NCBI GenBank assembly: GCA_003168355.1
Contig: PMSQ01000090.1
Location: forward strand, 16,731-53,146
Source: Acidobacteriaceae bacterium
GTDB taxonomy: Bacteria > Acidobacteriota > Terriglobia > Terriglobales > Acidobacteriaceae
Direction: 5' to 3'
DNA: 36,416 nt
The translations under genes were made by a program, and so were the position numbers. The notes under the pieces are model-generated. The model did no database searches. It was not told the DNA's origin and saw only the letters and a program-made list of their open reading frames with translations. Positions within the stretch are counted from its first letter, which is position 1. Each line of letters opens with the position of its first letter. Of the stretch, positions 5,087 through 36,071 are shown piece by piece.

Positions 5087-6481
5087 ATGGCGGTTCTTGA
5101 GAACGATATCCGGAGATCCCGGTGGCCGCAGAAGTTGGCACTGAAACGCGAGCCGCTGGCGGGTGCCTTCTTCTGGCTGAGCGGGTTTTACCTGATTTAT
5201 TGTGCCCGGCCGGAGGATTGGATTCCCGGGCTTGCGTACATCCCTCTAGCAAAGATCTCGGCGGTTTTCGCGTTGCTGGGGCTTTTAATGAGCGCGGGGA
5301 GAACCCAGCGGGGGTTCCGCGATCTGCCCAGGGAGGCGGGTTATTTTTTCGGCATGATCTGTCTGCTGTTCGTGTCCGCGCTGCTCTCTCCGGTGTGGAG
5401 GGGTGGCGCGTTTTTCGGAACGCTGGATTTTGCCAAGGCGCTGATTGCGTGGGTGCTGACTTTCCTGGTTATCACGACATTTGCGAGATTGCGGCGAATC
5501 ATTTTCATCCAGTCGGCGTCGGTCGCGGTGATTACCGTTGTATCCATCATCAAAGGACGGTCCCATCTCAGGCTGGATGGGGTGATTGGAGGAATCTATT
5601 CCAATCCCAATGACTTGGCATTCGCGATCGTGCTTTCCCTCCCATTCTGCTTCGCCTTTCTGTTGAGCACCCGCAGCATTCCACGCAAGGCCGCATGGGC
5701 AGCGTCCATACTGGCAATGTGTACCGCCTTGTTCATGACCGCCTCGCGCGCCGGTTTTATCGATCTCCTGGTCACAGGTGCGGTCTGCTTGTGGTTTTTC
5801 GGCGTCAAGGGGAAAAGGATTCACCTCATTGCGGCGGCGGTAGTACTGGTGTTGGTGGTTGGAGCCGCGGCCGGCGGACGGCTGAAAGATCGCTTCTTTG
5901 CCATATCGAGGAACAATGTCGACACCTCGCTTGAAGTCAGCGCCCACGACTCGTACGAGCAGCGCCGGATGTTAATGGTCGACAGTCTGAAGGGAGTAGC
6001 GCGCTATCCTTTGGGAATTGGATTGGGGAATTTCATCGTTTATTCTGGCATGTGGCGAGAAGTTCATGTCTCCTATCTCCAGATCGCGGTGGAGGGGGGG
6101 ATTGGCTCTTTGGTTCTCTACCTGCTCTTCTTCGCGCGTGGTTTCGCCAATCTCAAGCGGCTGCGCCGCATGCCCAGCTACGATCCTCAGATTGATCTGT
6201 TTGCGGGAGCCTTGTACGCGACTCTGATCGGATTCGTCGTGGGGGCCTTCTTTGCGCCCGAGGCTTACCAACTCTTCCCTTACTTTGCTGTGGCCTATAC
6301 CTCGGTGTTATTGGCGATCGCCAAGGAAAGAGAACAGTCCGCCGTTTCCCCTGCAGATTCGGTGAACCAACCCCAACCACGGTCGATAGCGCGGGCCCGA
6401 GCAGGCGAGTTGGCGTCGGTTCGCGGCGGCCCGGCCGAGTATTCCAGAACGCCTGACCATTTGCTTCGAAATCAGCGATGA
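5087..6481 (+). CDS. O-antigen ligase/polymerase-like membrane protein (Wzy_C family)
   Basis: This is a polytopic inner-membrane protein expected to polymerise or ligate lipid-linked repeat units on the periplasmic side. The 464 residues contain about ten hydrophobic helices, among them GAFFWLSGFYLIYCA, ALIAWVLTFLVITTFA and LIAAAVVLVLVVGAAAGG. A larger periplasmic loop near residues 270-330 carries the Wzy_C-like patch YPLGIGLGNFIVYSG. The cytoplasmic tail after about residue 425 is Arg/Ala/Pro-rich and of low complexity. Wzy and WaaL families cannot be told apart reliably by sequence. The presence of a flippase and chain-length factor in the locus favours polymerase. The start has a strong ribosome-binding site. 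The next gene begins 43 bases after the stop. Confidence 0.82.
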   Translation: MAVLENDIRRSRWPQKLALKREPLAGAFFWLSGFYLIYCARPEDWIPGLAYIPLAKISAVFALLGLLMSAGRTQRGFRDLPREAGYFFGMICLLFVSALLSPVWRGGAFFGTLDFAKALIAWVLTFLVITTFARLRRIIFIQSASVAVITVVSIIKGRSHLRLDGVIGGIYSNPNDLAFAIVLSLPFCFAFLLSTRSIPRKAAWAASILAMCTALFMTASRAGFIDLLVTGAVCLWFFGVKGKRIHLIAAAVVLVLVVGAAAGGRLKDRFFAISRNNVDTSLEVSAHDSYEQRRMLMVDSLKGVARYPLGIGLGNFIVYSGMWREVHVSYLQIAVEGGIGSLVLYLLFFARGFANLKRLRRMPSYDPQIDLFAGALYATLIGFVVGAFFAPEAYQLFPYFAVAYTSVLLAIAKEREQSAVSPADSVNQPQPRSIARARAGELASVRGGPAEYSRTPDHLLRNQR

Positions 6482-10807: not shown

Positions 10808-12738
10808 TGCGCCGCCGCCGCAACCGGCTCGTGTTCTTCTTTTTCCAGGCAGACTCTGTGCCACAATTCCAGATTCAAAAGACGCCAGATGCGGTCGGAA
10901 TGATCGCGGTGTCCTGACCGATGCTCGTTGAATAAACGCTCTACGGCGGAACGCTGGAACAACTCCCGCTCCAGGCTGCGCGGCTCCAGAAGCAGGTTGC
11001 GAATCACATCCAACTGCGGTCCGGCCAGCCAGCCGCTGAAGGGCGTGGGAAAGCCCAATTTCTGTCGGTAAAGAATGGAGTGCGGCAGCAGATCTTCGAC
11101 GGCCTTTTTCAGAATGCGTTTGCCTGCAAATCCGCCGAGCTGCAGATTCTGTGGAATATTCGTGGCAAACTCCACAAGGGGATGATCGAGGAAGGGAACC
11201 CGGCTCTCGATCGAGGCGGCCATGCTCATGTTGTCCTGCTTCATCAACAATTCAACCAGATAAGTCTTAATGTCGGTGTAGAGAAGACGCTGCAGCATCT
11301 CGCCAGAAGAATCTTCCCAGTATCCAAGTACGTGCCGATAGGCCGATCCTGCAGCGCATTCCTTGATGACCTCGTTGGTGAGTAATCCGGCTTGATCGCT
11401 CTCGCTGAATGCGGAGAAGAAATTGTCGAAATAAAAAGAAGCCCACGAGCTTCCATTACGGGCGAGGAAGGTGTGAGATAGCTTGCGCCGGATAGCGGCG
11501 TTGATCCAGGTAGAGTCGGCGATGGAGCCGCGAATAGCGCCGCGGACTGCGCCGGGAACCGTGCGCCGATAAATGCGGTCCCAGGCCGCATTCTTGAGAG
11601 TGAAGGCATATCGGGTGTAGCCAGCCAGCGTTTCGTCGGCTCCTTCGCCGGTCAACACGACCTTCACTCGCTCGTGTGCGAGCTTGGCGACGAAATAAAG
11701 AGGAACGCTGGAGGGCCAGACGATGGGCTCATCCTCATGCCAGATCAGATGCGGCAGGCTATCGAAGAAATCCTGCCGGCTGACGAGAACTTCATGGTGA
11801 AGCGAATTCAAATGTTGGGCGACAATGCGGGCGTAGGGTAGTTCGCTATATGCATCTTCGGAGTAGCCCACCGAAAAAGTCTCGACCGGAGCGTGGCGGA
11901 TCTTTGTCATCAGCGCAGCCACCGCGCTGGAATCAACGCCGCCGCTGAGGAAGACGCCGAGCGGCACATCGCTCATCAAGTGACTGCTCACCGCTTGCTC
12001 CAGCATTTCCCGGTAGGTCTGGATGTAGTAACTTTCCTGGTGTGCGTGCTCACTTTCGGTTACGGGGAGATCCCAGTAGGGTTCAATTCTGATTTGTCCG
12101 CTCTGCTCAACTTCCATCCAATGACCCGGCATCAGCTTGCGAATTCCGGTATAGAACGTTTGTTCGCCGGAGAGATACCCGAATGCCAGATATTCCGGAA
12201 GGACCGTGCGATCAAACTGCGCGCCGTTTCCGGAGCAGGCGAGAATCACTTTAATCTCTGAACCGAAAACTATTTGCTGCGCTGTCAGTTGGTAGTAAAG
12301 GGGCTTGATGCCCAGCCGGTCGCGAGCGATGAAGAGGCGTTGACAGCGCGTGTCCCAGATGGCGAAGGCAAACATGCCGCGCAGGTGTTGCACGCAGTCC
12401 GGCCCATATTCTTCGTAGAGATGAACGATGGTTTCCGTGTCGCTGTGAGTGCTGTAGCGATGACCCACCGACTGCAGTTTCTCGCGTAGGTCGGCGTGGT
12501 TGTAGATTTCACCGTTGAAAACAATCCAGACTGTCCCGTCTTCATTGCTAAGGGGCTGGTGTCCGGTTGCCAGATCCACGATGCTGAGGCGTCGCATGCC
12601 GATCCCGACAGAGCCAGCGGTGTAGATTCCATCGTCATCGGGGCCGCGATGGACCATGGCGGCACACATCTGCCGGAGAGTTTCAGGCTCAACCCTTGCG
12701 CCGTCCCTGAATTGCATGACCCCGGTAATACCGCACAT
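10804..12738 (-). CDS. asnB: Asparagine synthase-like glutamine amidotransferase 2
   Basis: This is a second enzyme of the same fold as the plus-strand amidotransferase, transcribed toward it. The glutaminase domain opens MCGITGVMQF with Cys2, then HRGPDDDGIY, RRLSIVDLATGHQP and FNGEIYNH. The synthetase domain carries the P-loop SGGVDSS near residue 260, VLTGEGADETLAGYTRYAF and KQDNMSMAASIESRVPFLDHP. The 644 residues make it complete. The two copies differ clearly along their length, so they are not a recent duplication and may act on different acceptors. It lies 49 bases downstream of the heparinase-like gene on the same strand and is probably cotranscribed with it. True asparagine synthesis remains possible but is less likely given the location. 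Confidence 0.87.
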   Translation of the reverse strand: MCGITGVMQFRDGARVEPETLRQMCAAMVHRGPDDDGIYTAGSVGIGMRRLSIVDLATGHQPLSNEDGTVWIVFNGEIYNHADLREKLQSVGHRYSTHSDTETIVHLYEEYGPDCVQHLRGMFAFAIWDTRCQRLFIARDRLGIKPLYYQLTAQQIVFGSEIKVILACSGNGAQFDRTVLPEYLAFGYLSGEQTFYTGIRKLMPGHWMEVEQSGQIRIEPYWDLPVTESEHAHQESYYIQTYREMLEQAVSSHLMSDVPLGVFLSGGVDSSAVAALMTKIRHAPVETFSVGYSEDAYSELPYARIVAQHLNSLHHEVLVSRQDFFDSLPHLIWHEDEPIVWPSSVPLYFVAKLAHERVKVVLTGEGADETLAGYTRYAFTLKNAAWDRIYRRTVPGAVRGAIRGSIADSTWINAAIRRKLSHTFLARNGSSWASFYFDNFFSAFSESDQAGLLTNEVIKECAAGSAYRHVLGYWEDSSGEMLQRLLYTDIKTYLVELLMKQDNMSMAASIESRVPFLDHPLVEFATNIPQNLQLGGFAGKRILKKAVEDLLPHSILYRQKLGFPTPFSGWLAGPQLDVIRNLLLEPRSLERELFQRSAVERLFNEHRSGHRDHSDRIWRLLNLELWHRVCLEKEEHEPVAAAAH

Positions 12739-12787: not shown

Positions 12788-15178
12788 TCAAATCACGATT
12801 TCTGAATCGAGCGCACTCGCAGAAAACGAACGGGCGGCAGACTCATCGGAGCAGGCCAGCTGATGCCGGCCCGCGCGGTTCGTCCACTCCAACCATTGTA
12901 GAGTGGCGTTGTGTGAGAGGAGAGACTCGCCCTGGAGTTGCGCGAAACTTCCCTCGCAGAACACCAGGTGGTCTACTCGGCGATCCTTTACACAAAAATA
13001 GAAAAACTTCGCGTCACTCGTCCATGGACCAAAATTCCAAACCGTCTTCTGCGCTTGACAAAAAATCATGGCGTGCGTGCTAGGGCCGCGCTCGTACCGG
13101 TAAGCCGCTTCCGGTGTTCCGACGTTGCCGCGCTGGCCTTCGTGACGAAGAAACTCACCGGTCTCTTCCATTCCGCCAACCGCGGGGATTAGCAGCACAG
13201 CATGCTCTGCCGGAAGTTCAACACGAGCGCTGCAGCGCACGACGGGCGCGCTCAACTTTGCGCCATAAGCCGGGGAGACATGCTCCGAGAGCAGCTCGAA
13301 TTTCCATAGTGGATCGGTGACCGGAAGTAAGGTTAGATGATTCGATCCCTCAGGATTGGCTGATTGGCCCTCTACGTGGCCAGCAACAAAAGCGTTTCCA
13401 CGATTGGAGACTTCAAGGTCCGGCGCGAAGTGCCAGGAGGTCTCGAGAAGATGCGAACCGTTGCCCTCGGAAACATCGCGTATCAGCCAGAAGCTGCCGT
13501 GCAAGTGAAACACAAAACGCCGATGTCGTGCCGGTTCACGGAGCCGCTCATATCCGGAGTGCGATCCGGCAAACAGGGTGAAGTTCGCGCCGGCGATCCA
13601 CAGCTCTGCCTTAGTGTCGGGAATCGAACTCCAGGCGAACGGGCCATCGGGTTCGGCCTGATCGAGACCGTCAACCGCCAGTGTGTTGTGAGCGCGCGTA
13701 CCACGAAATGTATTCCGCTCGTCGTCAGGACCGACGTAACAGCAGGTTCCTGCATCGACCAGCCACCGGCGGCCGCAGAAAGCGAGTTTGACGCTCAATG
13801 CGTCCGCATGGCCGTGCCCGCTGCATCGATTGCCTTGAGGACCAGCGTCGATGATCATCTGTTGAGCGATGGGTTCGGAGCTTCCCGCAATGTAGAGTCC
13901 GCCATCTGAAAAGGACTGAGATTTCGGTGTAGGCCGCGAGTCGGATATTCGCGCGATCCAAGACAGAGCCTCTTCGCCGAACAACCAGATCGATTCCTCG
14001 GTCAGGACGGCAGTGGGTCGAAGGCTCTCGTCGTGAAAAAGCGCAGCTCCGAGCGCCAGCGGATCCGTCATGTGTTCAGCGCGGTTGCGTCTGGGGTTGA
14101 AGACTCGTCCGCCGTCATCATCGCCGAAGCCGTCCGGCGGACCTGCTTGCGCAAGAGCCTGGATAACAGCCAGCATCTTTCTGACGACAAGTTCGAATGC
14201 GGAGGGAATTTTCATTTCATTTCGCGATGCGAGCAAACGTGCATGCAGGAAGAAATCAAGAGCATAGACGTGGTAATACAGCGATTGTTCGAAATATACG
14301 CCGTCGGGCCTGACTTGCCGCACCGCTTCCTCCTGGATGATCCTCCAACCTTTCTTCTTCCAGTCTTCGGCAGACGAAAGTTGAGGGCAAAGCGCTCCAA
14401 TAAAAACAAGTGCGACTGCTTCTCCCAGCAAATGCGTGTTGGGCGAAAAATAGGTAGATAGATATCGCTCTATATGGTAGCCGTTCAATGCCAATGCATG
14501 CAGGAGATCGTTCTGGAAACTGGCGGGCACAACGGGACAGTCTGCAAGCATCTGCCGAAGCCAAATCCAGGACAGACTGCGGAATGCGACTTCAAGGCTA
14601 CTGGCCCAGTTCGTCCCCAGCGGATAAGGATTGGCGAGCTGCCAGGAGTGCCATTGTGCGAAGATTTCCCGCGCATAGGCTTCTTCGCCGGTAAGCAGCC
14701 AAGCCTTTGCCAGTGTGACCAGGTGTTGATGACGATTCAATTCCCAAATGATCTTATGATCGCCGACCTTCGCAAAATCGAGGAAATTGATCTTGAACCA
14801 CGGTAGCAGTGGCGAGCGCAAACCATGTACCGCGTCGAGATGCCAATCGATTTCGGCACCGTAATCGAGGTCCCGATACCCCAAGAGTCGGAAACGATGG
14901 CGGCAAATCTCATTCGCTTCCGCCACAGTGTCCGTCGCTTCTTGAGGCAGATGTTCCCGTAGAAGACTCACGCGCTGACGGAGTTCATCCGCTGAAAAGA
15001 AGAAATTTCCTGGAGATCTTGAGGGGAGACGCAGGCCGTTCCGGCCCGGTCGCAGCCCGAAGCTACACAGGGCTACGTCGAGCCGCTTCGAAACCCCCTG
15101 GCGCGCGCGAGTCTCGAGTTCGTCCCAACTCATGTTGGACAAACGAGCCCAGAGCCTTCGTCCGGTGAGAGGCACCAT
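12788..15178 (-). CDS. Heparinase II/III family polysaccharide lyase-like protein
   Basis: Family members cleave uronic-acid-containing polysaccharides by beta-elimination, and relatives are often encoded inside EPS loci. The N-terminal alpha/alpha toroid domain (about 100-400) includes RSPLLPWFKINFLDF, KIIWELNRHQHLV, NPYPLGTNWASSLEVAFR and QSLYYHVYALDFFL. The C-terminal beta-sandwich carries the diagnostic block CSGHGHADALSVKL near residue 455, followed by WLVDAGTCCYVG and TRAHNTLAVDGLDQ. At 796 residues it is rather long for the family. No signal peptide is visible, so it may act in the cytoplasm, for example on misassembled precursors, or its export route is not obvious. The frame also opens with GTG at 15181, but the ATG one codon later at 15178, with gagg upstream, is the better start. 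It is divergent from the AlgD-like gene. Confidence 0.87.
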   Translation of the reverse strand: MVPLTGRRLWARLSNMSWDELETRARQGVSKRLDVALCSFGLRPGRNGLRLPSRSPGNFFFSADELRQRVSLLREHLPQEATDTVAEANEICRHRFRLLGYRDLDYGAEIDWHLDAVHGLRSPLLPWFKINFLDFAKVGDHKIIWELNRHQHLVTLAKAWLLTGEEAYAREIFAQWHSWQLANPYPLGTNWASSLEVAFRSLSWIWLRQMLADCPVVPASFQNDLLHALALNGYHIERYLSTYFSPNTHLLGEAVALVFIGALCPQLSSAEDWKKKGWRIIQEEAVRQVRPDGVYFEQSLYYHVYALDFFLHARLLASRNEMKIPSAFELVVRKMLAVIQALAQAGPPDGFGDDDGGRVFNPRRNRAEHMTDPLALGAALFHDESLRPTAVLTEESIWLFGEEALSWIARISDSRPTPKSQSFSDGGLYIAGSSEPIAQQMIIDAGPQGNRCSGHGHADALSVKLAFCGRRWLVDAGTCCYVGPDDERNTFRGTRAHNTLAVDGLDQAEPDGPFAWSSIPDTKAELWIAGANFTLFAGSHSGYERLREPARHRRFVFHLHGSFWLIRDVSEGNGSHLLETSWHFAPDLEVSNRGNAFVAGHVEGQSANPEGSNHLTLLPVTDPLWKFELLSEHVSPAYGAKLSAPVVRCSARVELPAEHAVLLIPAVGGMEETGEFLRHEGQRGNVGTPEAAYRYERGPSTHAMIFCQAQKTVWNFGPWTSDAKFFYFCVKDRRVDHLVFCEGSFAQLQGESLLSHNATLQWLEWTNRAGRHQLACSDESAARSFSASALDSEIVI

Positions 15179-15181
15179 CAC

Positions 15182-15322: not shown

Positions 15323-16645
15323 GTGGGTCTGTCGATCAGTGTGTTTGGCATGGGCTACGTGGGCTCAGTTACAGCCGCATGCTTCGCTCACCTAGGCCAC
15401 CGGGTAACCGGGGTGGACGTTAGTCCCGCCAAAGTGGAGATGATGGCTTCGGGGCACAGCCCTATCATCGAAGCCCGCATGAGTGAACTGGTGGAAGCAG
15501 GGCATCGGGCCGGGACACTGCATGCCACTACGGACGCGCTGGAAGCGGTTCGGAATTCGGAGATTTCTTTCGTCTGTGTCGGCACTCCGAGTCTGCGCAG
15601 CGGGAAGCTCGATCTGAGTTATGTGGAGCGCGTGGTTCATGAAATTGGCACAGCGCTCAGGCAAAAGGATTCCTATCACGTGATCGTGCTGCGCAGTACG
15701 GTCTTGCCCGGTACGACTGAGTCACTGGTCATTCCGACTGTGGAGAAGGCCCGCGGTTGCCGTGCGGGCGAGGGCTTCGCTGTGTGCTACAACCCCGAAT
15801 TTATGCGCGAAGGCAGCGCGGTCGCTGATTTTCTTCAGCCCCCATACACAGTGTTTGGGGCGCAGGACCAAAAACATTTCGCCAAGGTGCGGCAACTATA
15901 TAGCACGATCGCCAGTCCGGTCTTCGAAACCAGCATTCCTGTGGCGGAGATGGTGAAGTACGTATGCAATGCCTTCCACGCGGTGAAGGTAGGCTTTGCG
16001 AACGAGATGGGGACGCTATGCAAAAGTCTTGGAGTCGATGCTGAAGCCGTCACGAAGATCTACACCTCCGATACAAAGTTGAATATTTCTCCGGCGTACC
16101 TCTCGCCGGGTTTCGCTTTTGGCGGATCGTGCCTGCCCAAGGATTTGCGTGCGCTGGGTCATCGTGCGAAAGAGCTCGATCTGGGCCTACCTCTTCTGGA
16201 GTCAGTTTTACCGAGCAATGCGCAGCATATCGATCGGGCGGTTGACGCGGTGTTGCGGACAAACAAGAAGAAGATTTCGTTTCTGGGGTTGAGCTTCAAG
16301 CCCGGGACCGACGACCTCAGAGAGAGCCCTCAGGTGCAGATGATTAAACGGCTGCTGGGGGAAGGCAGCCAGGTGCGGGTATGGGATCGAGACGTGTCGC
16401 TGGGACGGCTGGCCGGCTCGAACCGCCAGTATATTGAGGAAGTAATTCCCCATATCGGTTCTTTACTCTCCGCCGATCTTGAAGAAGTAGTTCGAAGCGG
16501 CGAGGTGGTCGTTATCGCCACCAAGGTCGACAAAGACCAGCTTGCCCGGTGCCTGGGGCACGACCAGATTGTGATTGATCTCATCAATCTGGCTTCCGCA
16601 TCCCGCCCCACTGCCGGCACCTCCTATCAGGGGATTTGCTGGTAA
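15323..16645 (+). CDS. algD: GDP-mannose 6-dehydrogenase (AlgD-like nucleotide-sugar dehydrogenase)
   Basis: The enzyme oxidises a nucleotide sugar at C6 in two NAD-dependent steps, here probably GDP-mannose to GDP-mannuronate. The NAD-binding motif is FGMGYVGSVTAAC (8-20). The middle holds RSTVLPGTTESLVIP, and YNPEFMREGSAVADF follows. The central helix has VAEMVKYVCNAFHAVKV. The catalytic cysteine is Cys270 in GFAFGGSCLPKDLRAL. The C-terminal domain has LGLSFKPGTDDLRESP and the protein ends GICW. The FAFGGSCLPKD context, the length of 440 and the GICW ending closely match Pseudomonas AlgD as I remember it, and fit less well to UDP-glucose dehydrogenases. Substrate is therefore likely but not proven. 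It starts with GTG behind a good aaggag site. It is the only rightward gene in this part of the window. Confidence 0.87.
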   Translation: MGLSISVFGMGYVGSVTAACFAHLGHRVTGVDVSPAKVEMMASGHSPIIEARMSELVEAGHRAGTLHATTDALEAVRNSEISFVCVGTPSLRSGKLDLSYVERVVHEIGTALRQKDSYHVIVLRSTVLPGTTESLVIPTVEKARGCRAGEGFAVCYNPEFMREGSAVADFLQPPYTVFGAQDQKHFAKVRQLYSTIASPVFETSIPVAEMVKYVCNAFHAVKVGFANEMGTLCKSLGVDAEAVTKIYTSDTKLNISPAYLSPGFAFGGSCLPKDLRALGHRAKELDLGLPLLESVLPSNAQHIDRAVDAVLRTNKKKISFLGLSFKPGTDDLRESPQVQMIKRLLGEGSQVRVWDRDVSLGRLAGSNRQYIEEVIPHIGSLLSADLEEVVRSGEVVVIATKVDKDQLARCLGHDQIVIDLINLASASRPTAGTSYQGICW

Positions 16646-25673: not shown

Positions 25674-25788
25674 GAGGAAAACCTCAAAAACGGAGTTGGG
25701 GACCGTCGTTCGAGTCCTAGAGAGCACTTTAGAGAAGAGAAGGAGGGAAGGGCAGATGACGTGGGAACAGGGCCTATCAGATCACGGG

Positions 25789-25907: not shown

Positions 25908-27470
25908 TCAATGCTCTTCTTGCTGCGAGGTCTCGATAAGGCCGATCGCGACCTGGTTGGCGGCGTCCTGATCGTGGATCCCTTCCAACTGCCACGCTCT
26001 GCGCGTCCAAATTGCCCACAGAAGTCCCACGCCATAAACCACCGCTCCCACCAGAAGCTGAATCGTCAGTTGGAAATAGTTATGCGCTGCGAACCAATGG
26101 CGCATGAGCAAAAGAACGGCAACCAGCGGCCCGCAGAGCATCACAGGCAGAAGAAATGCCTGGCGCAGGTAAATGCCGATGCGCAGATTCAACACGCGGC
26201 AGAGGTGCCGAGGGATGAAGAACAGACTCGTACAGGCCAGCGGAATCGCGGTGCCCACCGCATCCCCGAGAATGCCGAACCGTCTTACCAGCAAAATGCT
26301 CAGGAAAAGATTCGCACACCCTTCCATCAGCGTCACGACCGCCAGAGTTTTGTGCTTTGCCATCCCGTACAGAATTCGGGAGGAAGCGCCCTGCGCTAAC
26401 ATCACGGTGGATGGGATCAACAGAACCAGCAAGACAGGGTAGCTCATAGCCACATACCGGGCTCCTACCCAGGCCTCGATCACCGATTTGCCCAGAATGA
26501 TGAGGATAGCCGCCATGGGAAGGATGATCAAGGCGCATGCACGGTTTCCGGCGACAAAGATCTTTCTCAGCCCTGCCAAATCCCCGGTGGCATCAGACTG
26601 GCTCGACATGGGCACGAACACCTGTGCCAGGCCACCGACAACCTCTCCGGCATAGTCCACCAATCTTGATCCAATGGTGAAGTAAGTGATTGCGGCGGAG
26701 GACACAAACGTGCCGATAACGATTGCATCCGTCCGAAAACGCAGGCGAACGGCCACGATGAGAATGAAGGTCGTGCTGCTGTAGGTGGCAATGCGTCGCA
26801 GGCTCTCGCGATTGAAGTTCTTGATACCGAGACGGAGGGGGAGAATATAGAGGACCGCGGTGGCATTGACCAGCCCGGAAATCAGAGGCATCGACACGGT
26901 GATCAGCGCAACCGCGAGAAGGCCATGCCCGCGCCGGACAGCCATCACAATCAAAACCGCACGCAACACGGTTGCGCCAATGCTGGTGAAGTTCAACAGG
27001 TAGAATCGCTGCAAGCCCTCGAGGACACCGCCAAATACTCCTATGGGAAAGCCGAGAGACACGGCTGAACCGACAATCAAGAAAAGCCATCGCGCCGTAT
27101 ACAGGAACTGTGGCGATATGCGAAAGATCGAGTCGACGTAGAAACTGCCGGCCAGAGTAACGAGGATCGCGAGGGCGCCGATTCCGCTGTAGGTGAACAA
27201 TGCCGTGCTGATGAGGCGGTTCAACTCCTCCTGATTATGAGTAGCCGAATAGGTGGCAACATAACGCACGATAGACGAACGAATTCCCAGATCGAACAGT
27301 CCGTAATAACCGGTGACGGAGAAGACCAGGAACCACAAACCGAAAGCATCGTCTCCCAGGTGGTGAATGATGTAGGGCGAAATAAAGATTCCGACGAGGA
27401 TGTTGACGCCAAGGGCAAACCAGCTTGAGCCAACATTCTTGAAAATCGCGATTTTATCCAGCCTCTTCAT
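25908..27470 (-). CDS. Wzx-like polysaccharide flippase
   Basis: This is a polytopic inner-membrane protein of the MVF/MATE-like oligosaccharide flippase superfamily, expected to move undecaprenyl-linked repeat units to the periplasmic face. The 520 residues contain about 12-14 hydrophobic helices. The opening KNVGSSWFALGVNILVGIFI and the segment HHLGDDAFGLWFLVFSVTGYYGLFDLGI, with its Gly-Leu-Asp-x-Gly turn, are typical. Mid-protein loops are Arg-rich and cytoplasmic. The start codon overlaps the stop of the GT2 gene as ATGA (27467-27470), so the two are translationally coupled. With the ligase/polymerase-like gene and the chain-length factor at the other end of the window, this completes a Wzx/Wzy-type assembly set. 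Confidence 0.86.
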   Translation of the reverse strand: MKRLDKIAIFKNVGSSWFALGVNILVGIFISPYIIHHLGDDAFGLWFLVFSVTGYYGLFDLGIRSSIVRYVATYSATHNQEELNRLISTALFTYSGIGALAILVTLAGSFYVDSIFRISPQFLYTARWLFLIVGSAVSLGFPIGVFGGVLEGLQRFYLLNFTSIGATVLRAVLIVMAVRRGHGLLAVALITVSMPLISGLVNATAVLYILPLRLGIKNFNRESLRRIATYSSTTFILIVAVRLRFRTDAIVIGTFVSSAAITYFTIGSRLVDYAGEVVGGLAQVFVPMSSQSDATGDLAGLRKIFVAGNRACALIILPMAAILIILGKSVIEAWVGARYVAMSYPVLLVLLIPSTVMLAQGASSRILYGMAKHKTLAVVTLMEGCANLFLSILLVRRFGILGDAVGTAIPLACTSLFFIPRHLCRVLNLRIGIYLRQAFLLPVMLCGPLVAVLLLMRHWFAAHNYFQLTIQLLVGAVVYGVGLLWAIWTRRAWQLEGIHDQDAANQVAIGLIETSQQEEH

Positions 27471-28456
27471 TTGGGCGATTGCCGGGACTTTCGTCGGTGC
27501 AAGAAGCGCGCCCCCAGGACCGTCAAACGTGGTGCGAGGCGCAGGCCAATCAGAAGGGCACGAAGTTTCGTGGTCGGCACAAGAGCGTTGGCGCGGCTCA
27601 GGGATTCGCAGGCTTTTTCCCGCTCTCCTGCCAGCACGAACGCCTTACCTTCAATAAAGGCAAGCTCCGCCTCTATGATTCGCAGTCTCTGTGCGAGCAA
27701 GGCGCGGGTGCGGGAGCTCAGATCGAGATCCTGATCCAGTTTTCTGAGCGTTCTGCCTTCGCCGGCCAGCAAGCTTGCCGGAGCCGACCCTTGGCTATCA
27801 GGGCGCACGTTGCGGCGCAGAAGCACTTGCCGCTGATATGCCATCCTGCCGCCGGCGTAGACGACACGCAACCACAGATCATGATCTTCGGAGTGGCGAA
27901 TCGTTTCGTCAAAAAGACCCGCCTCTGTCACTTTTTGCCGCCGCACGATGGTTCCTGAGGTGACGGGCTGCGTTTGCGAAATCAGAAGGCTCTCGAAAGT
28001 TACCGGTCCGGTCGAGGGGCAAAGTTGCATGAAAGTTTTGCCCGCGGTGTTTATGTCGCCCTCAAGGGCGGCGTCGCAAAACACCATGTCCAGAGCAGGG
28101 TCACTGTGCAGGAATTTCATCTGCTCTGCGAGGTAGTGCGGCAGCCAGGCGTCATCGCTATCCAGAAAGGCGAGGAATTCTCCCTGTGCATGCTGAATGC
28201 CAAGATTGCGAGCCGCACTGGGACCGAGATTTTCCTGCGTCAGGTAGGTGATGCGAGAAACGTAGGGCCGAATGGCCTGCTCCAGCCGCGCGGTATCGGA
28301 CGATCCATCGTTGACAAGAATCACTTCATAATCGGTGAAGATCTGCGCGAACACAGAACCCAGTGCCACTCCGATGTGGCCAGCCGTGTTGTAAGCGGGG
28401 ATGATTACACTCACTGCAGGCAATCCAGGCCTCTGTGCGTTATCGTTGAGAATCAA
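27467..28456 (-). CDS. GT2 family glycosyltransferase
   Basis: This is a soluble or membrane-associated GT-A glycosyltransferase of family 2. The catalytic domain opens AVSVIIPAYNTAGHIGVALG, then VNDGSSD at the donor site and FLDSDDAWLP as the D-x-D metal site. GTIVRRQKVTEAGLFDE and EDHDLWLRVV, at the acceptor/base region, follow. The C-terminal 90 residues are helical and Arg/Leu-rich. The start is uncertain. The frame opens with TTG at 28456 without a visible ribosome-binding site, and the GTG inside AVSVI is an alternative behind agagg. The sulfotransferase ends 28 bases upstream and the flippase start overlaps its stop, placing it inside the sulfation/flippase operon. Confidence 0.85.
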   Translation of the reverse strand: MILNDNAQRPGLPAVSVIIPAYNTAGHIGVALGSVFAQIFTDYEVILVNDGSSDTARLEQAIRPYVSRITYLTQENLGPSAARNLGIQHAQGEFLAFLDSDDAWLPHYLAEQMKFLHSDPALDMVFCDAALEGDINTAGKTFMQLCPSTGPVTFESLLISQTQPVTSGTIVRRQKVTEAGLFDETIRHSEDHDLWLRVVYAGGRMAYQRQVLLRRNVRPDSQGSAPASLLAGEGRTLRKLDQDLDLSSRTRALLAQRLRIIEAELAFIEGKAFVLAGEREKACESLSRANALVPTTKLRALLIGLRLAPRLTVLGARFLHRRKSRQSPK

Positions 28457-28484
28457 GGGAGAAGGAAAGCCAGACGGATTTTCA

Positions 28485-29327
28485 TCACAGGGCTGAATGC
28501 GCTTGGCCGCCCTCGCTAGTCACCAGCGCATACCCGAGCGTCGACATCAGATCTCCCCAGGTCGACTCAATCTTCGATACCAAGGCTGGCGCTAGATCCG
28601 ATTGCCATTGGCCGCTCACTGCCGGGCCCACGAAGGGGATGTCCTTGCGATGTTTTTTCGTCGCGACCCAGTGGTCCGATTGGGTCCGTTCCATCTCTCG
28701 CATCCGCTCTGGCGAACTGGCTTCGATGGCTTGCTTCAACCGCTCCGGTGTGGGTTCGAGGCCCAGAAAAGCTGCGATTCGCTTTAGTTCCCGTTCGGTG
28801 TCGCTCTTCATGTCTTCATAACGCAGAAGCAGGAAGCCGTTATGGTTCTGGCGAGTGTAAACCCAGCTCGCCACGTTCTCACCCCAACTGCCCCAGCCGG
28901 CCGAGATCAGCCTGCCATTTACAAAATCGTCCACGTAGTCGGCGAGCGGATAATCGTCCGTAAGCTGCCGGTATTTTCTCTGAAAGTTGTAATAGGATAG
29001 CACCAAATCGCGAGGGTCGCGCACAATGTAGAGCACACGCCGGCAACGCGGATCAAAGTACGTATGACTCTTAATGATGCGTGGCCGGGGCGTATTTTTC
29101 AGCGCACGATTGGACTGCGAAGATGTATCCGGGATCAGGCGCTCAATGTTCGTGAAAGCTACACTTTCTGACGGGAAAACCAGGTTTGCGATGAGGAACC
29201 GAGTCCAGGTATTGCCGGAACGCGGATACGAAACCACAAAAGTGTCATCCGGATATACCGCCAAATTGCGGTCCGCAACGTCGATCCCTAATAGGTATTT
29301 GAAAACAACTTTAATTCCGTAAATCAT
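28485..29327 (-). CDS. PAPS-dependent sulfotransferase
   Basis: The enzyme transfers sulfate from PAPS to a hydroxyl or amine and releases 3',5'-PAP. All core Sulfotransfer_1 motifs are present: the 5'-phosphosulfate loop SYPRSGNTWTRF (33-44), the probable catalytic KSH (86-88), and the 3'-phosphate site YIVRDPRDLVLSYYNF (100-115). A C-terminal KKHRKDIPFVGPA segment resembles the PAPS adenine/phosphate lid. The 280 residues have no signal peptide, so it works in the cytoplasm where PAPS is made. The acceptor is inferred to be the growing lipid-linked sugar, because GT2 and flippase genes follow directly and PAPS synthesis genes lie just upstream. A small-molecule acceptor cannot be excluded. 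The ATG overlaps the end of the pyruvyltransferase remnant by 17 bases. Confidence 0.88.
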   Translation of the reverse strand: MIYGIKVVFKYLLGIDVADRNLAVYPDDTFVVSYPRSGNTWTRFLIANLVFPSESVAFTNIERLIPDTSSQSNRALKNTPRPRIIKSHTYFDPRCRRVLYIVRDPRDLVLSYYNFQRKYRQLTDDYPLADYVDDFVNGRLISAGWGSWGENVASWVYTRQNHNGFLLLRYEDMKSDTERELKRIAAFLGLEPTPERLKQAIEASSPERMREMERTQSDHWVATKKHRKDIPFVGPAVSGQWQSDLAPALVSKIESTWGDLMSTLGYALVTSEGGQAHSAL

Positions 29328-29511
29328 TGAGAGGAAGCTCCATCAAGTCTAGCACCGCCGGAAGGTGATGGAGTCTTTCCACTTCCTGCGGCTGCTCAGA
29401 CAGAACGGTCAGCCGGAATCCGCGTTTTTCCAACTGACGACGGAGACAGAACAACATCATCTCGTCGCCCAGATTCTTTTGTCCGTAATAGCCCATCAAT
29501 AAAGCATTCAT
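29311..29511 (-). pseudogene. N-terminal remnant of a polysaccharide pyruvyltransferase (CsaB-like)
   Basis: A 66-codon frame starts at the ATG that overlaps the cysQ stop (ATGA at 29508-29511). Its opening MNALLMGYYGQKNLGDE is the diagnostic first strand and loop of polysaccharide pyruvyltransferase-family proteins, which are normally 300 or more residues. The first Rossmann unit continues to about residue 40, and then the frame ends at 29311 after LPLNDLRN. The family's glycine-rich next motif and all of the catalytic domain are missing. The sulfotransferase start lies in another frame within its last 17 bases. This looks like a truncated gene whose remainder was lost, perhaps when the sulfotransferase arrived. 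A functional small protein is possible but less likely. Confidence 0.7.
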
Positions 29512-30317
29512 GGGGTGTTTTCGGCTAGGCGGAGGTATGGCTCTATCAAAGCGACCAGCTTCTCTTTCAGAAAAGGCCCGCTGGCCAGCAGGCCTGACAG
29601 AAGAGGATCGCGACGATTGGCGGTCAAATCGGTTTTCTCCAGCGTGCTGACAAAACCACCCGCACTCTGCACCAATGCCGCTCCTGCCACAACGTCCCAT
29701 TCGTTCTTGGGAGTGAGCGTGAAAGTGGCGTCCGCGAGCCCAGCGGAAACGAGTGCCAACTTGTAAGCGACGGAACCCATGGCCCGAATCTCGAACCGCT
29801 CATTTTCAAACGGCTTCCACTCGCCGCGTTTGACTTCGCTGCGGCTGGCGAGAACGAGCGCTCCATCCAGACTTGTGCGCTGGCTGGGACGCGCCGACAC
29901 GCCGTTGTAGAGCACGCCGTTGCCGATGGATCCGAGAAAAGTCTCCTTGGTGGCGGGGTTGTAAATTCCGCCAGCGACGGGCTTCCCGTTCTCCACGAAC
30001 CCAATCGAAACGCAGAACTCCGGAATGCCTTGCACAAATTCGCGGGTGCCGTCGAGAGGATCGACCACCCAAACGCGTGAGCGCTGCAGGCGGATGGGAT
30101 CGTCTACGCTCTCTTCGGAGAGCCAGCCTTCCCCTTCGCGCAGAAGTTCCCTGCGCAGAACGGCGTCGAGCGCGCGATCGGCCTCGGTTACGGGATCGTG
30201 TCCAGCTTTGTACTCCGTTTCAATTGCTCCCGGTGTGAAGCGGGCAAACACCGCGTGAGAGGCTTCCAGGGCGGCGTGAATGCGTTCCAGGATTTTTGCG
30301 TAGGATTTTGATTCCAT
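29508..30317 (-). CDS. cysQ: 3'(2'),5'-bisphosphate nucleotidase (PAP phosphatase)
   Basis: CysQ hydrolyses 3',5'-PAP, the inhibitory by-product of sulfotransferases, to AMP and phosphate. The inositol monophosphatase fold signatures are present: GHDPVTEADRALD, the acidic WLSEESVDD and the metal site DPLDGTREF near 86-94, with EFCVSIGFVENGKPVAG after it. The C-terminal EWDVVAGAALVQSAGG block is also there. The frame is open up to 30434, but that part overlaps the transporter gene upstream. The ATG at 30317, preceded by aagag, gives the normal length of 269 residues. The stop overlaps the remnant frame as ATGA. Sulfate activation, transport and sulfotransfer genes on both sides support CysQ over a plain inositol phosphatase. 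Confidence 0.86.
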   Translation of the reverse strand: MESKSYAKILERIHAALEASHAVFARFTPGAIETEYKAGHDPVTEADRALDAVLRRELLREGEGWLSEESVDDPIRLQRSRVWVVDPLDGTREFVQGIPEFCVSIGFVENGKPVAGGIYNPATKETFLGSIGNGVLYNGVSARPSQRTSLDGALVLASRSEVKRGEWKPFENERFEIRAMGSVAYKLALVSAGLADATFTLTPKNEWDVVAGAALVQSAGGFVSTLEKTDLTANRRDPLLSGLLASGPFLKEKLVALIEPYLRLAENTP

Positions 30318-30370
30318 GGTCACTCTTGATGTGTCCAGTTTGTTCCAAAGGCACTCACTGAGAACTGTTT

Positions 30371-31138
30371 TCAAGCCATGAGCATGCGCGCGCCGGTTGC
30401 CAGCAACACCGCGCAAAGAATACGTCTGAGCCACGGAACCGGTACGCGCGTGCTCAAGTAGGAGCCGAGCAACCCTCCCGGAACCGAGCCGATTAAAAGT
30501 GCCCCAACCAGGTGGATGTCAATATTGTGCATCCGAAAATGAAGAAGACTGGTTACGCCGGTAAGGATCAGGGCGTGGACGATGTCGGTGCCCACCATCA
30601 CTTTCGGCTGAAAGCTGTAAAACAGCAACAGCATCATCATGACGATGCTGCCCGAGCCGACCGAAGTGATGCCCACCAGGAATCCCGCCACCAAGCCAAT
30701 GAGCGACATCCAGGCGAACGATTTCGTCGTAGGGGGCCGGTCGGCGACGCGGTCCTCGATTTTTTTCTGGAAAAATAGGAAGGTCGGAATGCAAACCAGC
30801 AGCACTCCCACGGCAACAGTGATGAAGTGGTTGACGCCATTGCCATAGACGTTTCGCAGGTGAACCAGCAGACTCACGCCGAGATAGGAGCCGGGAGCGC
30901 TGCCGACTGCGAGCGCCACGACTACCTTGTGCCGAACCGTCCCCTTGCGCAGGTGGACGATGCTGGCGCCGATCTTGGTGAGAAAGTTGAAGAGCGCGTC
31001 TGAGCCTACGGCGCGCATGGGCGGCACGCCCAAACCGAAAATGAGGATCGGGAGCAGCAGAACGCCGCCCCCGACACCCGTCATTCCGATGAGGGTCCCG
31101 ACTCCAAAACCCACCAAGATCTTGATCAGCAGATCCAT
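30371..31138 (-). CDS. TauE/SafE (TSUP) family anion transporter
   Basis: This is an inner-membrane transporter of the TSUP family, whose members move sulfite, sulfonates or related small anions. Within 255 residues there are about eight hydrophobic helices in two repeats. Each repeat starts with a Gly-rich motif, LIGMTGVGGGVLLLPILIF near the N-terminus and FLVGITSVGSGSIVMMMLLL in the middle. Charged loops include HLRKGTVRHKVV. It starts 13 bases after the ATP sulfurylase/APS kinase stop and ends 53 bases before cysQ. Its position inside a sulfate-activation operon suggests sulfate uptake or sulfite/sulfate balance. The direction and exact substrate cannot be read from sequence. Confidence 0.85.
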   Translation of the reverse strand: MDLLIKILVGFGVGTLIGMTGVGGGVLLLPILIFGLGVPPMRAVGSDALFNFLTKIGASIVHLRKGTVRHKVVVALAVGSAPGSYLGVSLLVHLRNVYGNGVNHFITVAVGVLLVCIPTFLFFQKKIEDRVADRPPTTKSFAWMSLIGLVAGFLVGITSVGSGSIVMMMLLLFYSFQPKVMVGTDIVHALILTGVTSLLHFRMHNIDIHLVGALLIGSVPGGLLGSYLSTRVPVPWLRRILCAVLLATGARMLMA

Positions 31139-31151
31139 GAGTTACCGCGGC

Positions 31152-32897
31152 CTAGACCGACTCCGCAGCCGTTCCGATGAAGCCTTCCCGCTCCAAGTGC
31201 AGAATGATTTCCTGGGCTGCCTCTTCGGCGGATAAGTCCCCGGTGTTGATGGTGACTTCGGCGTCGGCCGGAGCTTCGTAAGGATCCGAGATGCCGGTAA
31301 ATTCCTTCAGAATTCCCGCGCGCGCTTTGGCATACAGGCCTTTGCGATCGCGTTGTTCGCAGACTTCCACAGTGGTGGCGATGTGCACCAGAATGAACCC
31401 TCCGTAGGGCTCAATCAGCTGCCGCACATGTTTGCGCGTCGCGTCATACGGCGCGATGGGCGCGCAAATAGCAATGCCGCCGTTCTTGGTGATTTCCGAT
31501 GCGACGTAGCCGATACGCCGGATGTTGATGTCGCGATGTTCTTTGGAGAATCCGAGTTCGGAAGACAGATTCTTCCGGACCAGATCGCCATCCAGTAGCG
31601 TGACCGGACGCCCACCCGTTTCCAGGAACTTAGTTAGCAGTACATTGGCGATGGTCGACTTACCGGAACCGGAAAGTCCGGTGAAGAAGACGGTCACGCC
31701 TTGTTTGTGACGGGGTGGGAAGCTGCGGCGCAATTCCGTCACCACTTCCGGATAGGTGAACCAGGCGGGGATGTCGCGGCCTTCGTTCAGACGCTGGCGA
31801 AGTTCAGTGCCGGAGATGTTCAGCACGCGATCGCCGTTCTTCACTTCATCGTCAGGAACGTATTTGTCCTGATCCTCGAGGTACACCATCATGTTGAAAG
31901 GGACCATGATGACGCCGATATCGGCTTCGTGTTTCTTGAAAACTTCCTGGGCTTCATAGGGACCGTAGAAGGGCTTGCCATTAGTGTCCTTGCCCGGACC
32001 CGCGTGATCGCGGCCCACGATGAAGTGAGTGCAGCCATGATTCTTGCGGATGAGCGCGTGCCAGATCGCTTCACGCGGTCCGCCCATACGCATGGCGAGC
32101 GGCAGCAAAGAAAGTTTGGCGGTCGATTGCGGGAACTTCGAGAGCAGCAGTTGATAACAACGCACGCGTGTGTAGTAATCCACGTCACCGGGCTTGGTCA
32201 TGCCCACCACGGGATGGATCAGCAAATTCGCTTCGACTTGCTTGGCGGCGCGGAATGCCAACTCGACGTGAGCGCGGTGCATAGGATTGCGAGTCTGGAA
32301 AGCGACCACGCGCCGCCAGCCCACGCGGGCAAATTCAGCGCGCACTTCGGCGGGAGTCAAACGCAGGTTACGGAAATCATAGTGGGACGGAATCTGGGTC
32401 CCTTCCAGCTTTCCGCCGACGTACCAGGGGTTTGCCTTGTTGATGGTGTAATCCGCGCCCGGATGAGCGGGGCTGGTGCTGGCGAAAACCGCCTGGGCCT
32501 CGGCCTTGCGGTCAGGCTGCCAGACTTCTTCCACGTTCAACACCGCCAACATAACGCCTTCAGGGTCGCGCAAGGCGATTTTGCTGGTGCCCGGAGTGAG
32601 CTTCTTGGCAAATTCCTCGGTTACATCCAGGGTGACGGGCATGGGCCAAAGCGTTCCGTCGGCTAACCGCATGTTGTGGCAAACACCTTCGTAATCGGCG
32701 CGCGTCATGAATCCCCGCAGCGGAGAAAACCCGCCGGTGAGCAGCAACTCGAGGTCACAAAGCTGGCGGCCGGTGAGGTCCCACGAGGGCCATTCTTTCG
32801 AATGGGACTTTAATTCGGCGATTCGCTCGGGTTGAGCGATGATTTGAATAAGTTCTCCGCCGTGCGGCGGGATGAGATGGCTGGTCGAAGCGGTCAA
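31152..32897 (-). CDS. sat: Bifunctional ATP sulfurylase / APS kinase (PAPS synthase)
   Basis: The protein makes PAPS from sulfate in two steps: ATP sulfurylase forms APS, and APS kinase phosphorylates it. The N-terminal PUA-like domain includes LLLTGGFSPLRGFM. The sulfurylase domain has QTRNPMHRAHVELAF near residue 200 and GRDHAGPGKD near 292. The C-terminal APS kinase has the P-loop GLSGSGKST near residue 405, then LLDGDLVRKNL, LGFSKEHRDINIRRIG and APYDATRKHVRQL. The 581 residues are typical of a fused enzyme. The start is TTG at 32897 behind a perfect AGGAGG eight bases upstream. Assimilation-only loci would usually carry reductase genes such as cysH. None is here, which favours PAPS use by the sulfotransferase. 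Confidence 0.93.
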   Translation of the reverse strand: MTASTSHLIPPHGGELIQIIAQPERIAELKSHSKEWPSWDLTGRQLCDLELLLTGGFSPLRGFMTRADYEGVCHNMRLADGTLWPMPVTLDVTEEFAKKLTPGTSKIALRDPEGVMLAVLNVEEVWQPDRKAEAQAVFASTSPAHPGADYTINKANPWYVGGKLEGTQIPSHYDFRNLRLTPAEVRAEFARVGWRRVVAFQTRNPMHRAHVELAFRAAKQVEANLLIHPVVGMTKPGDVDYYTRVRCYQLLLSKFPQSTAKLSLLPLAMRMGGPREAIWHALIRKNHGCTHFIVGRDHAGPGKDTNGKPFYGPYEAQEVFKKHEADIGVIMVPFNMMVYLEDQDKYVPDDEVKNGDRVLNISGTELRQRLNEGRDIPAWFTYPEVVTELRRSFPPRHKQGVTVFFTGLSGSGKSTIANVLLTKFLETGGRPVTLLDGDLVRKNLSSELGFSKEHRDINIRRIGYVASEITKNGGIAICAPIAPYDATRKHVRQLIEPYGGFILVHIATTVEVCEQRDRKGLYAKARAGILKEFTGISDPYEAPADAEVTINTGDLSAEEAAQEIILHLEREGFIGTAAESV

Positions 32898-33271
32898 GTG
32901 CTAGGCCTCCTGGAATTCTTGCGTTGTTTTGTCTATTACCTTTATTATCTTTGCCTGGATCGCTTCCCAGACTCTACCGGGGGGCGGAACCGATTGCAGG
33001 TTACCTAAGGGAGAGGAACAACCCCGAAGCTTTACCCAACAGACTACCACTTTTCTGCGATGGGAATAAAGCTCGATTGATGACTGCAAATAACTAAGAA
33101 ATGCAGCAATTAGCAGACCTTCCGCGCTATGCGCTACCCACGTAAGCAAATGAAACGAAGAGGTTTGTCGAGGGTGGTCTGCCTGCGAAGCTCCGGAGGG
33201 CCCAGAGGATGAAAACAATTGCGACAATGGGTAGAGCAATTCCACCCAGCTTAAGACTTGGCACCTGCGAT
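32898..33271. other. 374-base gap upstream of the PAPS synthase gene
   Basis: I see no convincing gene here. The strand in use is minus, and the gap should carry the leader, and possibly a promoter, of the sulfation operon. The only strong element is AGGAGG next to the TTG start. An A/T-rich stretch, aaagataataaaggtaatag, sits just upstream of it. An 8-base palindrome, ctccggag, lies near 33190-33197. I recognise no riboswitch consensus. Confidence 0.5.
32906..32911 (-). promoter_or_regulatory. sat: Ribosome-binding site that fixes the TTG start of sat
   Basis: AGGAGG on the minus strand lies eight bases before TTG at 32897. No ATG or GTG is placed as well, and an in-frame TAG at 32901-32903 excludes any start further upstream. 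Confidence 0.75.
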
Positions 33272-34036
33272 TTAGGTTCGCCGGCCCTGCTGCCAGTCGT
33301 TCAGTTTCCAATCATGGCCGCGGACACAGAGAGCGGCGGCATAGCCAAGGCCCCCTGGCACATCCTGAAGTAGCCAGCGTCCCGCTTCTGAGCCGTCGGG
33401 GCGCGTGGCCAGCAGCGCATTTTTCTCCCCAGCCTCCAGTGAGACGTCGAATTGGCTTAGGGGAAGCGATAGTCCGTCCCCGGTTGCTTTGATGTAGGCC
33501 TCTTTTCGCGTCCAGCAGCGGAAGAAGGAATCAGGTTTTTCCTCCGCGGGCACTGCGACAAGTTGCCCCTGCTCGTGTGTGGAAAAGAAGCGGCGGGCGA
33601 TGGCTTCCAAATCGAAATCGCGGCGAACTTGTTCCACATCGACACCGATCTCGCGCCCGCGAGTAAAAGCCAACAAGGCGATGTCTCCGGAATGGGAAAC
33701 GTTAAACGTGACATTGCTCTCCGCATGCTCCGGCCCCAGAGAAGGTTTTTCTTTTTTCGAATAGGAGAAGCGCAAGCCTTTTGGATCCGTTGCCAGATAG
33801 CTACCGAGGATTATCCGCAACAGGGCTCGCGCCGTAACAAAGCGCTGACGGTCCCGCGAAAAATGAAAACGGGAAGCGCGGGTCGATTCATCGGAGGAAA
33901 GAATTTGTTTCCAGCGGGATTCCTCCGCACCGATAGCCTCCAGATCGACTCGCCAAAGTTGCACTTCGTCTTCGGGTAGTGTGAGAGGCTCGTCGATCCG
34001 GAAGCCTGCGTCGATGATGTTCATGTTCTGGCTCAT
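33272..34036 (-). CDS. 4'-phosphopantetheinyl transferase (Sfp/AcpT superfamily)
   Basis: The enzyme transfers phosphopantetheine from CoA to a serine on a carrier protein and releases 3',5'-PAP. Family motifs are clear: FHFSRDRQRFVTARALLR early, FNVSHSGDIALLAF in the middle, the Mg-binding GVDVEQVRR near residue 129 and FFRCWTRKEAYIKATGDGL near 170-188. The size of 254 residues fits the Sfp-like group. Start may be 34036 or the ATG four codons later, and neither has a clear ribosome-binding site. No carrier protein, fatty acid or polyketide gene is in the window, so its partner is elsewhere. It is followed by a 374-base gap, so linkage to the sulfation operon is not certain. Confidence 0.88.
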   Translation of the reverse strand: MSQNMNIIDAGFRIDEPLTLPEDEVQLWRVDLEAIGAEESRWKQILSSDESTRASRFHFSRDRQRFVTARALLRIILGSYLATDPKGLRFSYSKKEKPSLGPEHAESNVTFNVSHSGDIALLAFTRGREIGVDVEQVRRDFDLEAIARRFFSTHEQGQLVAVPAEEKPDSFFRCWTRKEAYIKATGDGLSLPLSQFDVSLEAGEKNALLATRPDGSEAGRWLLQDVPGGLGYAAALCVRGHDWKLNDWQQGRRT

Positions 34037-35911: not shown

Positions 35912-36071
35912 TCTTACAGAGCGTACTAGAATCCCGGATGAACAAAGCAATTCATTCTTTCTGGGTGACCACGCTATGCACGCATCTTCAAGTCAGGAGC
36001 CGGTGGGCAGCAGGAAGCCCAAGGCCTGGCGCAAATTTCAAGAATTCGAGTACAACGCGTTCGAAGAAGAA

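Follow-up and report, generated by a model that had tools for sequence, protein, structure and literature searches.

Candidate sulfation module, with sulfate activation probably shared with cysteine synthesis, in an XrtA-type exopolysaccharide locus of an acidobacterium

Genes at the locus

We analysed 36,416 nucleotides of DNA from an acidobacterium (bases 16731-53146 of contig C117, from an assembly of 5.3 Mb and 92% completeness) and refer to this whole stretch as the window. On its minus strand, between 25908 and 32897, lie genes for a Wzx-like flippase, a GT2 glycosyltransferase, a SULT-type sulfotransferase, a CysQ-like phosphatase, a TSUP transporter and a fused ATP sulfurylase/adenosine 5'-phosphosulfate (APS) kinase, hereafter Sat-APSK (Table 1). 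The last three form what we call the Sat-TSUP-CysQ cassette. An earlier sequence-only reading had named these six genes at these positions and seen in them enzymes for making and using 3'-phosphoadenosine 5'-phosphosulfate (PAPS) beside XrtA-type exopolysaccharide (EPS) genes; the profile scores agree on both counts and show the set to be complete. It had also described gaps of at most 53 bases and two ATGA overlaps. This spacing holds if a 66-amino-acid (66-aa) open reading frame (ORF) between the phosphatase and the sulfotransferase is counted; otherwise the two genes are 180 bases apart. The Sat-APSK and TSUP genes are separated by 13 bases, and the TSUP and phosphatase genes by 53 bases, counted from the ATG of the latter.

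Sat-APSK matches both domains of the bifunctional family and can be aligned over almost its full length (to residues 10-574) with the bifunctional SAT/APS kinase 2gks as well as with solved ATP sulfurylases. It retains the P-loop GLSGSGKS and the motif QTRNPMHRAH, and a hydropathy scan gave no membrane segment. A role of the TSUP protein in sulfate uptake or in sulfite export is possible. For the phosphatase, the CysQ model TIGR01331 was the best of seven NCBIfam matches.

Ten aligned sulfotransferases share, without variation, the YPxSGNTW loop and residues K86, H88, R103, D104, R106, D107, S111 and G239, and P105 and W241 are nearly invariant; together with the PF00685 match, these residues place the protein in the SULT type. 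From the SULT literature, we take the roles of these motifs to be PAPS binding and catalysis. The predicted structure (mean pLDDT 81) resembles PAP-bound SULTs, with TM-scores of 0.65-0.77 by query length among the 50 matches listed. Judging from the sequences, the sulfation module is probably functional. A second sulfotransferase, 35% identical, is encoded in the same genome on contig C172 (L042:7913-8740, minus strand), away from the contig of the EPS locus. A search of plasmids with the sulfotransferase matched 90 records; among the 40 listed, the top identity was 29.4% and the Synechocystis xss plasmid did not appear.

The 66-aa ORF immediately precedes the start of the sulfotransferase gene and is probably a gene remnant; it could be the trace of one acidic decoration gene yielding to another. 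A pyruvyl transferase gene adjoining the cassette was considered and rejected: PF04230 was matched in 33 of 61 genomes, with none near Sat among the matches listed. There, the sole PF04230 place on a Sat contig is about 490 kb from Sat (G018), and the genome studied here has a single match, on contig C92.

Table 1. Features of the window discussed in the text, with the evidence for each assignment
Feature	Position	Strand	Evidence
Wzx-like flippase	25908..27470	-	PF13440 44.8 bits (cut-off 23); NF041503 WZX_like 47 bits, below cut-off 300; 11 transmembrane (TM)-like stretches
GT2 glycosyltransferase	27467..28456	-	PF00535 96.8 bits; no membrane segment by hydropathy scan
SULT-type sulfotransferase	28485..29327	-	PF00685 137.3 bits (cut-off 22)
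66-aa ORF, possible remnant of polysaccharide pyruvyl transferase N terminus	29311..29511	-	TIGR03609 CsaB 42 bits (cut-off 213), model positions 2-51
CysQ-like phosphatase, inositol-monophosphatase family	29508..30317	-	PF00459 164.1 bits; ATG at 30317, longer GTG ORF from 30434
TSUP (TauE/SafE) transporter	30371..31138	-	PF01925 164.2 bits; 7 TM-like stretches
Fused ATP sulfurylase/APS kinase (Sat-APSK)	31152..32897	-	NF004040 929.5 bits (cut-off 669); TTG start behind AGGAGG
Conserved and apparently non-coding leader preceding Sat-APSK	32898..33075	-	blastn in relatives
Sfp/HetI-type phosphopantetheinyl transferase, upstream of leader	33272..34036	-	PF01648 68 bits; HetI model 212.7, below cut-off 370
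XrtA-type priming glycosylphosphotransferase	3588..4961	+	TIGR03013 453.9 bits (cut-off 393.35)
Putative O-glycosylation ligase/Wzy-like polymerase of XrtA loci	5087..6481	+	TIGR03097 66.9 bits, below cut-off 188.1
XrtA-type amidotransferase 1	6525..8465	+	TIGR03108 712.9 bits, below cut-off 816.9
XrtA-type amidotransferase 2	10804..12738	-	TIGR03108 605.5 bits, below cut-off
Heparinase II/III-like lyase of EPS locus	12788..15181	-	PF07940 and PF16889; HepC models below cut-off
UDP-glucose/NDP-sugar 6-dehydrogenase	15323..16645	+	TIGR03026 397 bits (cut-off 189.8)
stp1-like GT4	17447-18697		258 bits, below cut-off 316.65

Conservation of the linkage in relatives

Among 101 genomes searched, 45 have sulfotransferase homologs and 62 the sulfurylase family PF01747. 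The close sulfotransferase subfamily, defined by scores of at least 157 bits, occurs in 30 genomes and usable Sat places in 47; both are present in 28, the genome studied here included. Sulfotransferase and Sat lie on one contig in 16 of these 28 genomes, 3.2-9.8 kb apart. If genes were placed at random in a genome of 5 Mb, a given pair would fall within 10 kb in about 0.4% of cases, with the reservation that the genomes are related and the events not independent.

We also compared 32 Sat-APSK loci of relatives, 12 picked for the presence of the sulfotransferase and 20 mostly for its absence, so that they are not a random sample. Close to Sat and on the same strand, TSUP was found in 28 loci and a CysQ-like gene in 31. 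Loci with a Wzx gene within 10 kb of Sat number 17 and those with a sulfotransferase there 15, while 22 have one or more of the tested EPS markers in that range. Seen from the sulfotransferase, EPS markers occur at 10 kb or less in 19 of 21 relatives (of XrtA type in 7 of these 19) or, counted by place, near 31 of 36 sulfotransferase genes. At least two sulfotransferase genes were found in 14 of the 21 relatives, over the stretches covered, and one in this window. The linkage of cassette, sulfotransferase and EPS genes is conserved in many relatives, and the conservation of neighbours on which the sequence-only reading had made its case depend is thus there.

Sulfotransferases of another family also occur in these loci. 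In G085 (locus L077), one of PF13469 type is encoded about 4 kb from Sat, and such genes stand in the EPS neighbourhoods of relatives at L044:8133-9182 (plus strand) and L077:5684-6718 (minus strand). Weak matches of similar length to sulfotransferase profiles were seen in six more loci. Four loci that lack the close subfamily (L065, L066, L068 and L069) have eight ORFs flanking the cassette, and these gave no sulfotransferase match.

The surrounding EPS genes and the region upstream of Sat-APSK

Between 1 and 10.8 kb, the window holds XrtA-type chain length, ATPase, kinase, priming transferase, ligase and amidotransferase genes, together with a GT4 protein. Further glycosyltransferases follow, along with the second amidotransferase, the lyase and the NDP-sugar dehydrogenase. 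The genes for the exosortase, EpsI and an export protein sit immediately beyond the window edge, upstream. The exosortase exceeds the cut-off of the exosortase A model (TIGR03109, 216.3 against 208), as do EpsI (TIGR02914, 135.1 against 42.8) and the priming transferase on their own models. Two results count against a plain XrtA assignment: the exosortase also scores 239 on the XrtD and 234 on the XrtW model, both below cut-off, so that its type is not clear-cut, and several XrtA models, which cover the ATPase, chain length, export, amidotransferase and kinase proteins, stay under their cut-offs (TIGR03015 300.6/324.5, TIGR03007 196/278.9, TIGR03018 148.7/230.7, TIGR03108 712.9/816.9 and TIGR03027 146.8/180). 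Because of these low scores, we class the EPS locus, by its profile matches, as divergent XrtA-type. The XrtA-type gene nearest to the sulfotransferase is that of the stp1-like GT4, about 10 kb away. The window combines PAPS synthesis genes and a sulfotransferase within a polysaccharide cluster, the combination by which a sulfated-polysaccharide biosynthesis locus is recognised. All four solved sequences matched by the lyase are heparinase III. Since the locus encodes both a UDP-glucose-type dehydrogenase and this heparinase-III-like lyase, the polymer is probably rich in uronic acids.

Three other proteins of the region deserve mention. Those encoded at 18850-20667 and 22992-25727 (minus strand) are related, being 72% identical over their common part, and each has a hydrophobic N-terminal stretch. 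The longer one bears Ig-like (He_PIG) repeats; the shorter, of 605 aa, had no Pfam or NCBIfam family match, and its predicted model is beta-rich and poor (mean pLDDT 45.7). The protein at 34148-35950 (minus strand) joins a formyltransferase-like part (below cut-off) to a GINT1-like part and is perhaps a sugar-modifying enzyme. Rfam gave no match anywhere in the window.

The leader of about 180 bases upstream of Sat-APSK was matched by blastn in 9 of 41 loci of relatives, at 71-82% identity over 127-238 bases, and may serve as a promoter region or as a regulatory RNA. In an alignment of 12 leader sequences, a CCUCC-type stretch could form pairs with the GGAGG ribosome site. None of its five pairs is backed by changes in both partners, and the consensus energy reaches only -4.3 kcal/mol, which leaves a regulatory RNA a guess; no Rfam match to the leader turned up at E values up to 5. 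The presence of the leader suggests that the cassette has a transcription start of its own. A 136-aa ORF at 32901-33311 was tried as a gene and rejected, having no family match and overlapping the leader.

Phosphopantetheinyl transferases release 3',5'-ADP (PAP), as sulfotransferases do, and the gene for such an enzyme upstream of the leader raises the question of whose PAP the CysQ-like phosphatase removes. Its main task could be to clear the PAP of the phosphopantetheinyl transferase, sulfation being incidental to it. In its favour, 12 of the 32 loci have the transferase gene within 10 kb of Sat, and 10 of these at a distance of about 1.6 kb. We nevertheless find this explanation very improbable, since the phosphatase gene is near Sat in all loci but one, hence in at least 19 that lack that transferase within 10 kb.

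Sulfate activation and cysteine synthesis

The sequence-only reading described a dedicated module and used the lack of reductive assimilation genes as an argument against a cysteine pathway. That lack holds for the window genes scanned, but not for the genome: contig C135 carries CysH (the one PF01507 match) beside siroheme genes and a sulfite/nitrite-reductase-like gene, which rules out a total absence of reductive genes. Sat-APSK is the only Sat-type sulfurylase of the assembly (one PF01747 match), and CysD was found neither here nor in any other genome of the genus (0 of 37, this one included). A duplicated supply, as a dedicated module would have, is thus not seen: no separate assimilatory ATP sulfurylase was found elsewhere in the genome. 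Given the single sulfurylase found and the CysH on another contig, we reject a dedicated module as it was stated, and the argument against a cysteine pathway is not supported either. With one Sat-type sulfurylase, no CysD and CysH encoded elsewhere, Sat-APSK is probably shared, the APS half serving cysteine synthesis and the PAPS half the sulfotransferases.

Which reductase is fed matters for the other parts of the cassette. The CysH protein, matched in 31 of the 37 genus genomes, has in this genome a CC...CxxC arrangement, a pattern that we take to mark APS reductases; the APS-reductase model gives it a score of 233.1 (cut-off 235.3), the PAPS-reductase model one of 215.4 (cut-off 254.2). If CysH uses APS, it could do without APS kinase and CysQ alike, so that sulfation is favoured as the purpose of these two parts, and since the APS kinase half would be needless for cysteine, the sulfotransferases are likely PAPS users. 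Two genomes (G001 and G025, both 96% complete) have Sat and no CysH match, which suits sulfation better than assimilation; G025 has the cassette and sulfotransferases. Sharing itself has evidence against it. The reductase beside CysH best matches a nitrite-reductase model, below cut-off; three genomes (G017, G019 and G027, 85-91% complete) have CysH and no Sat match; and an assembly that is 92% complete could miss another sulfurylase.

Sulfation of a lipid-linked unit

Taken together, we consider it likely that the window holds a sulfation module within an XrtA-type Wzx/Wzy-like EPS locus, sulfating a lipid-linked unit and sharing its activation step with cysteine synthesis. Sulfate would possibly enter via the TSUP protein and be converted by the fused Sat-APSK to APS and then to PAPS. 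The sulfotransferase would transfer the sulfuryl group from PAPS to a lipid-carrier oligosaccharide built by GT2 and other transferases, the CysQ-like phosphatase would remove the by-product PAP, and Wzx would flip the sulfated unit before polymerisation and export. The Sat half would also feed APS to the APS-reductase-like CysH. The sulfotransferase has no membrane segment in a simple hydropathy scan and would therefore act on the cytosolic side, before flipping. In this, the proposal of the sequence-only reading that a lipid-linked sugar is sulfated before flipping fits the protein. The data themselves show which genes are there, that active-site residues and linkage are conserved, and that the assembly has no other sulfurylase; that the polymer is the acceptor we infer, as we do the direction of transport, the order of the steps and the sharing with cysteine synthesis. 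The polymer, a slime, is probably sulfated.

Some observations weigh against sulfation as the function of these genes. The CysQ-like protein scores 125 bits on TIGR01331, under the cut-off of 228.8, and thus falls short of CysQ membership. Sulfotransferase and Sat lie on separate contigs in 12 of the 28 genomes, which are draft assemblies where some separations may be breaks. Among the 20 loci of the second batch, 16 lack a sulfotransferase by profile search, and 10 of all 32 carry the cassette without tested EPS markers within 10 kb, some stretches stopping at contig ends. These ten loci would suit a cassette that is a plain sulfate-assimilation unit, near EPS genes by history and joined by a separately acquired sulfotransferase. 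The same can be said of the sole ATP sulfurylase of the genome, the CysH and sulfite/nitrite-reductase-like genes elsewhere, the absence of CysD from the genus and the conserved leader of the cassette. It also fits G011 (99% complete), where sulfotransferases and the EPS core are on a different contig from the cassette, though a homolog of the XrtA-associated ATPase, which is not a tested marker, adjoins the latter (L066). Still, we regard a plain assimilation unit as unlikely: the APS-reductase pattern of CysH would make the fused APS kinase and CysQ superfluous for cysteine, and such a unit accounts for the Sat half and not for the sulfotransferase, with its proximity to Sat in 16 of 28 genomes and to EPS markers in 19 of 21 relatives.

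The acceptor is a further point of doubt. The solved sulfotransferases nearest to this one are SULTs with small-molecule substrates, so that the fold does not reveal the acceptor; sequence and predicted fold give no pointer to a glycan. StaL and Teg enzymes, whose substrates we take to be small molecules or glycopeptides, appear lower among the solved relatives. The target could then be a small molecule or lipid, as in sulfolipids or Nod factor, instead of EPS. We hold this to be improbable given the gene order, with the sulfotransferase between GT2 and the cassette and Wzx next but one, the EPS markers near it in most relatives and the frequent presence of two or more such genes. Moreover, the 26 window ORFs scanned gave no match to nonribosomal peptide or polyketide synthases, though a phosphopantetheinyl transferase is present.

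Sulfation of the EPS unit is thus the reading we retain, and it could be extended to the genus. The only sulfate-activating enzyme would then sit inside an EPS island with its own leader, and a glycosaminoglycan (GAG)-like, uronic-acid-rich sulfated EPS and cysteine synthesis would split at one APS branch point, with APS going to CysH and PAPS to the polymer; sulfated slime would be widespread in the phylum and tied to sulfur status. This extension is tentative, and we think it somewhat doubtful as a whole. If it is true, the shared sulfurylase would tie the chemistry of the matrix to sulfur nutrition.

Comparison with known systems

Among bacteria, sulfated polysaccharides are documented for cyanobacteria and a small number of others, most of them marine; a paper of 2021 described them as confined to cyanobacteria (PMC8205485), a statement repeated in one of 2026 (PMC13390465). 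A conserved linked gene set in Acidobacteriota widens the potential for sulfated EPS to a common soil phylum and provides a testable gene list for relatives. It may also help to trace which organisms, as yet unassigned, make the sulfated GAG-like polymers of granular sludge (mentioned in the accessible part of PMC7356697). The sequence-only reading knew of no characterised sulfated EPS from XrtA-type loci, and our literature search, mainly of open-access papers, likewise returned no report of one from an XrtA/PEP-CTERM locus or from Acidobacteriota among the matches listed. The terms "PEP-CTERM" and "sulfotransferase" together matched one paper, listed as a genome survey of Acetobacteraceae.

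Several known systems resemble this locus in part. Synechan is made in Synechocystis PCC 6803 by the xss genes, a Wzx/Wzy-type EPS cluster with two sulfotransferase genes, recalling the multiple sulfotransferases of many relatives here; the host is a cyanobacterium, the xss gene list names no PAPS-making genes, and the paper uses the term "exosortase" outside its main text and not within it (PMC8205485). The wps-1 cluster of Actinoplanes missouriensis, as described in the text available, also combines Wzx/Wzy and two sulfotransferases, in an actinomycete and with the polymer sulfate predicted; loss of an adjoining gene of the Sat/APS kinase family severely impaired sporangium formation (PMC13390465). 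In Pontiella sulfatireligans, of the Kiritimatiellae, a sulfated GAG-like EPS was measured and a sulfotransferase lies in a glycosyltransferase-rich cluster, whereas the listed sulfotransferases are PF13469 and the accessible part of the paper mentions no PAPS-making genes (PMC7356697).

Two published capsule loci provide the precedent. The marine Cobetia marina KMM 1449 has a single operon of cysN/cysC, cysD, cysQ and a sulfate permease gene by its capsule export genes, and a sulfotransferase gene as well; the structure of its sulfated polymer was solved (PMC11766843, in the part available). Both loci thus join PAPS synthesis, a CysQ-type phosphatase, a transporter and a sulfotransferase to polysaccharide genes, but there the capsule is of the ABC-transporter type and the sulfurylase of the CysND type, whereas the acidobacterium has a Sat-APSK fusion in an XrtA/Wzx-type locus. 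For Vibrio sp. KMM 8419, whose capsule cluster likewise joins PAPS synthesis genes and sulfotransferases, the authors regard this combination, in the text available, as a hallmark of sulfated polysaccharide synthesis; that strain has second copies of cysC, cysN and cysD, whereas here a single sulfurylase was found in the genome (PMC11641403). Hence, the principle of PAPS genes and sulfotransferases in polysaccharide loci is already published for Vibrio and Cobetia, and what is new here, as far as the literature found goes, is the phylum, the XrtA type of the locus and the single activating enzyme that is probably shared.

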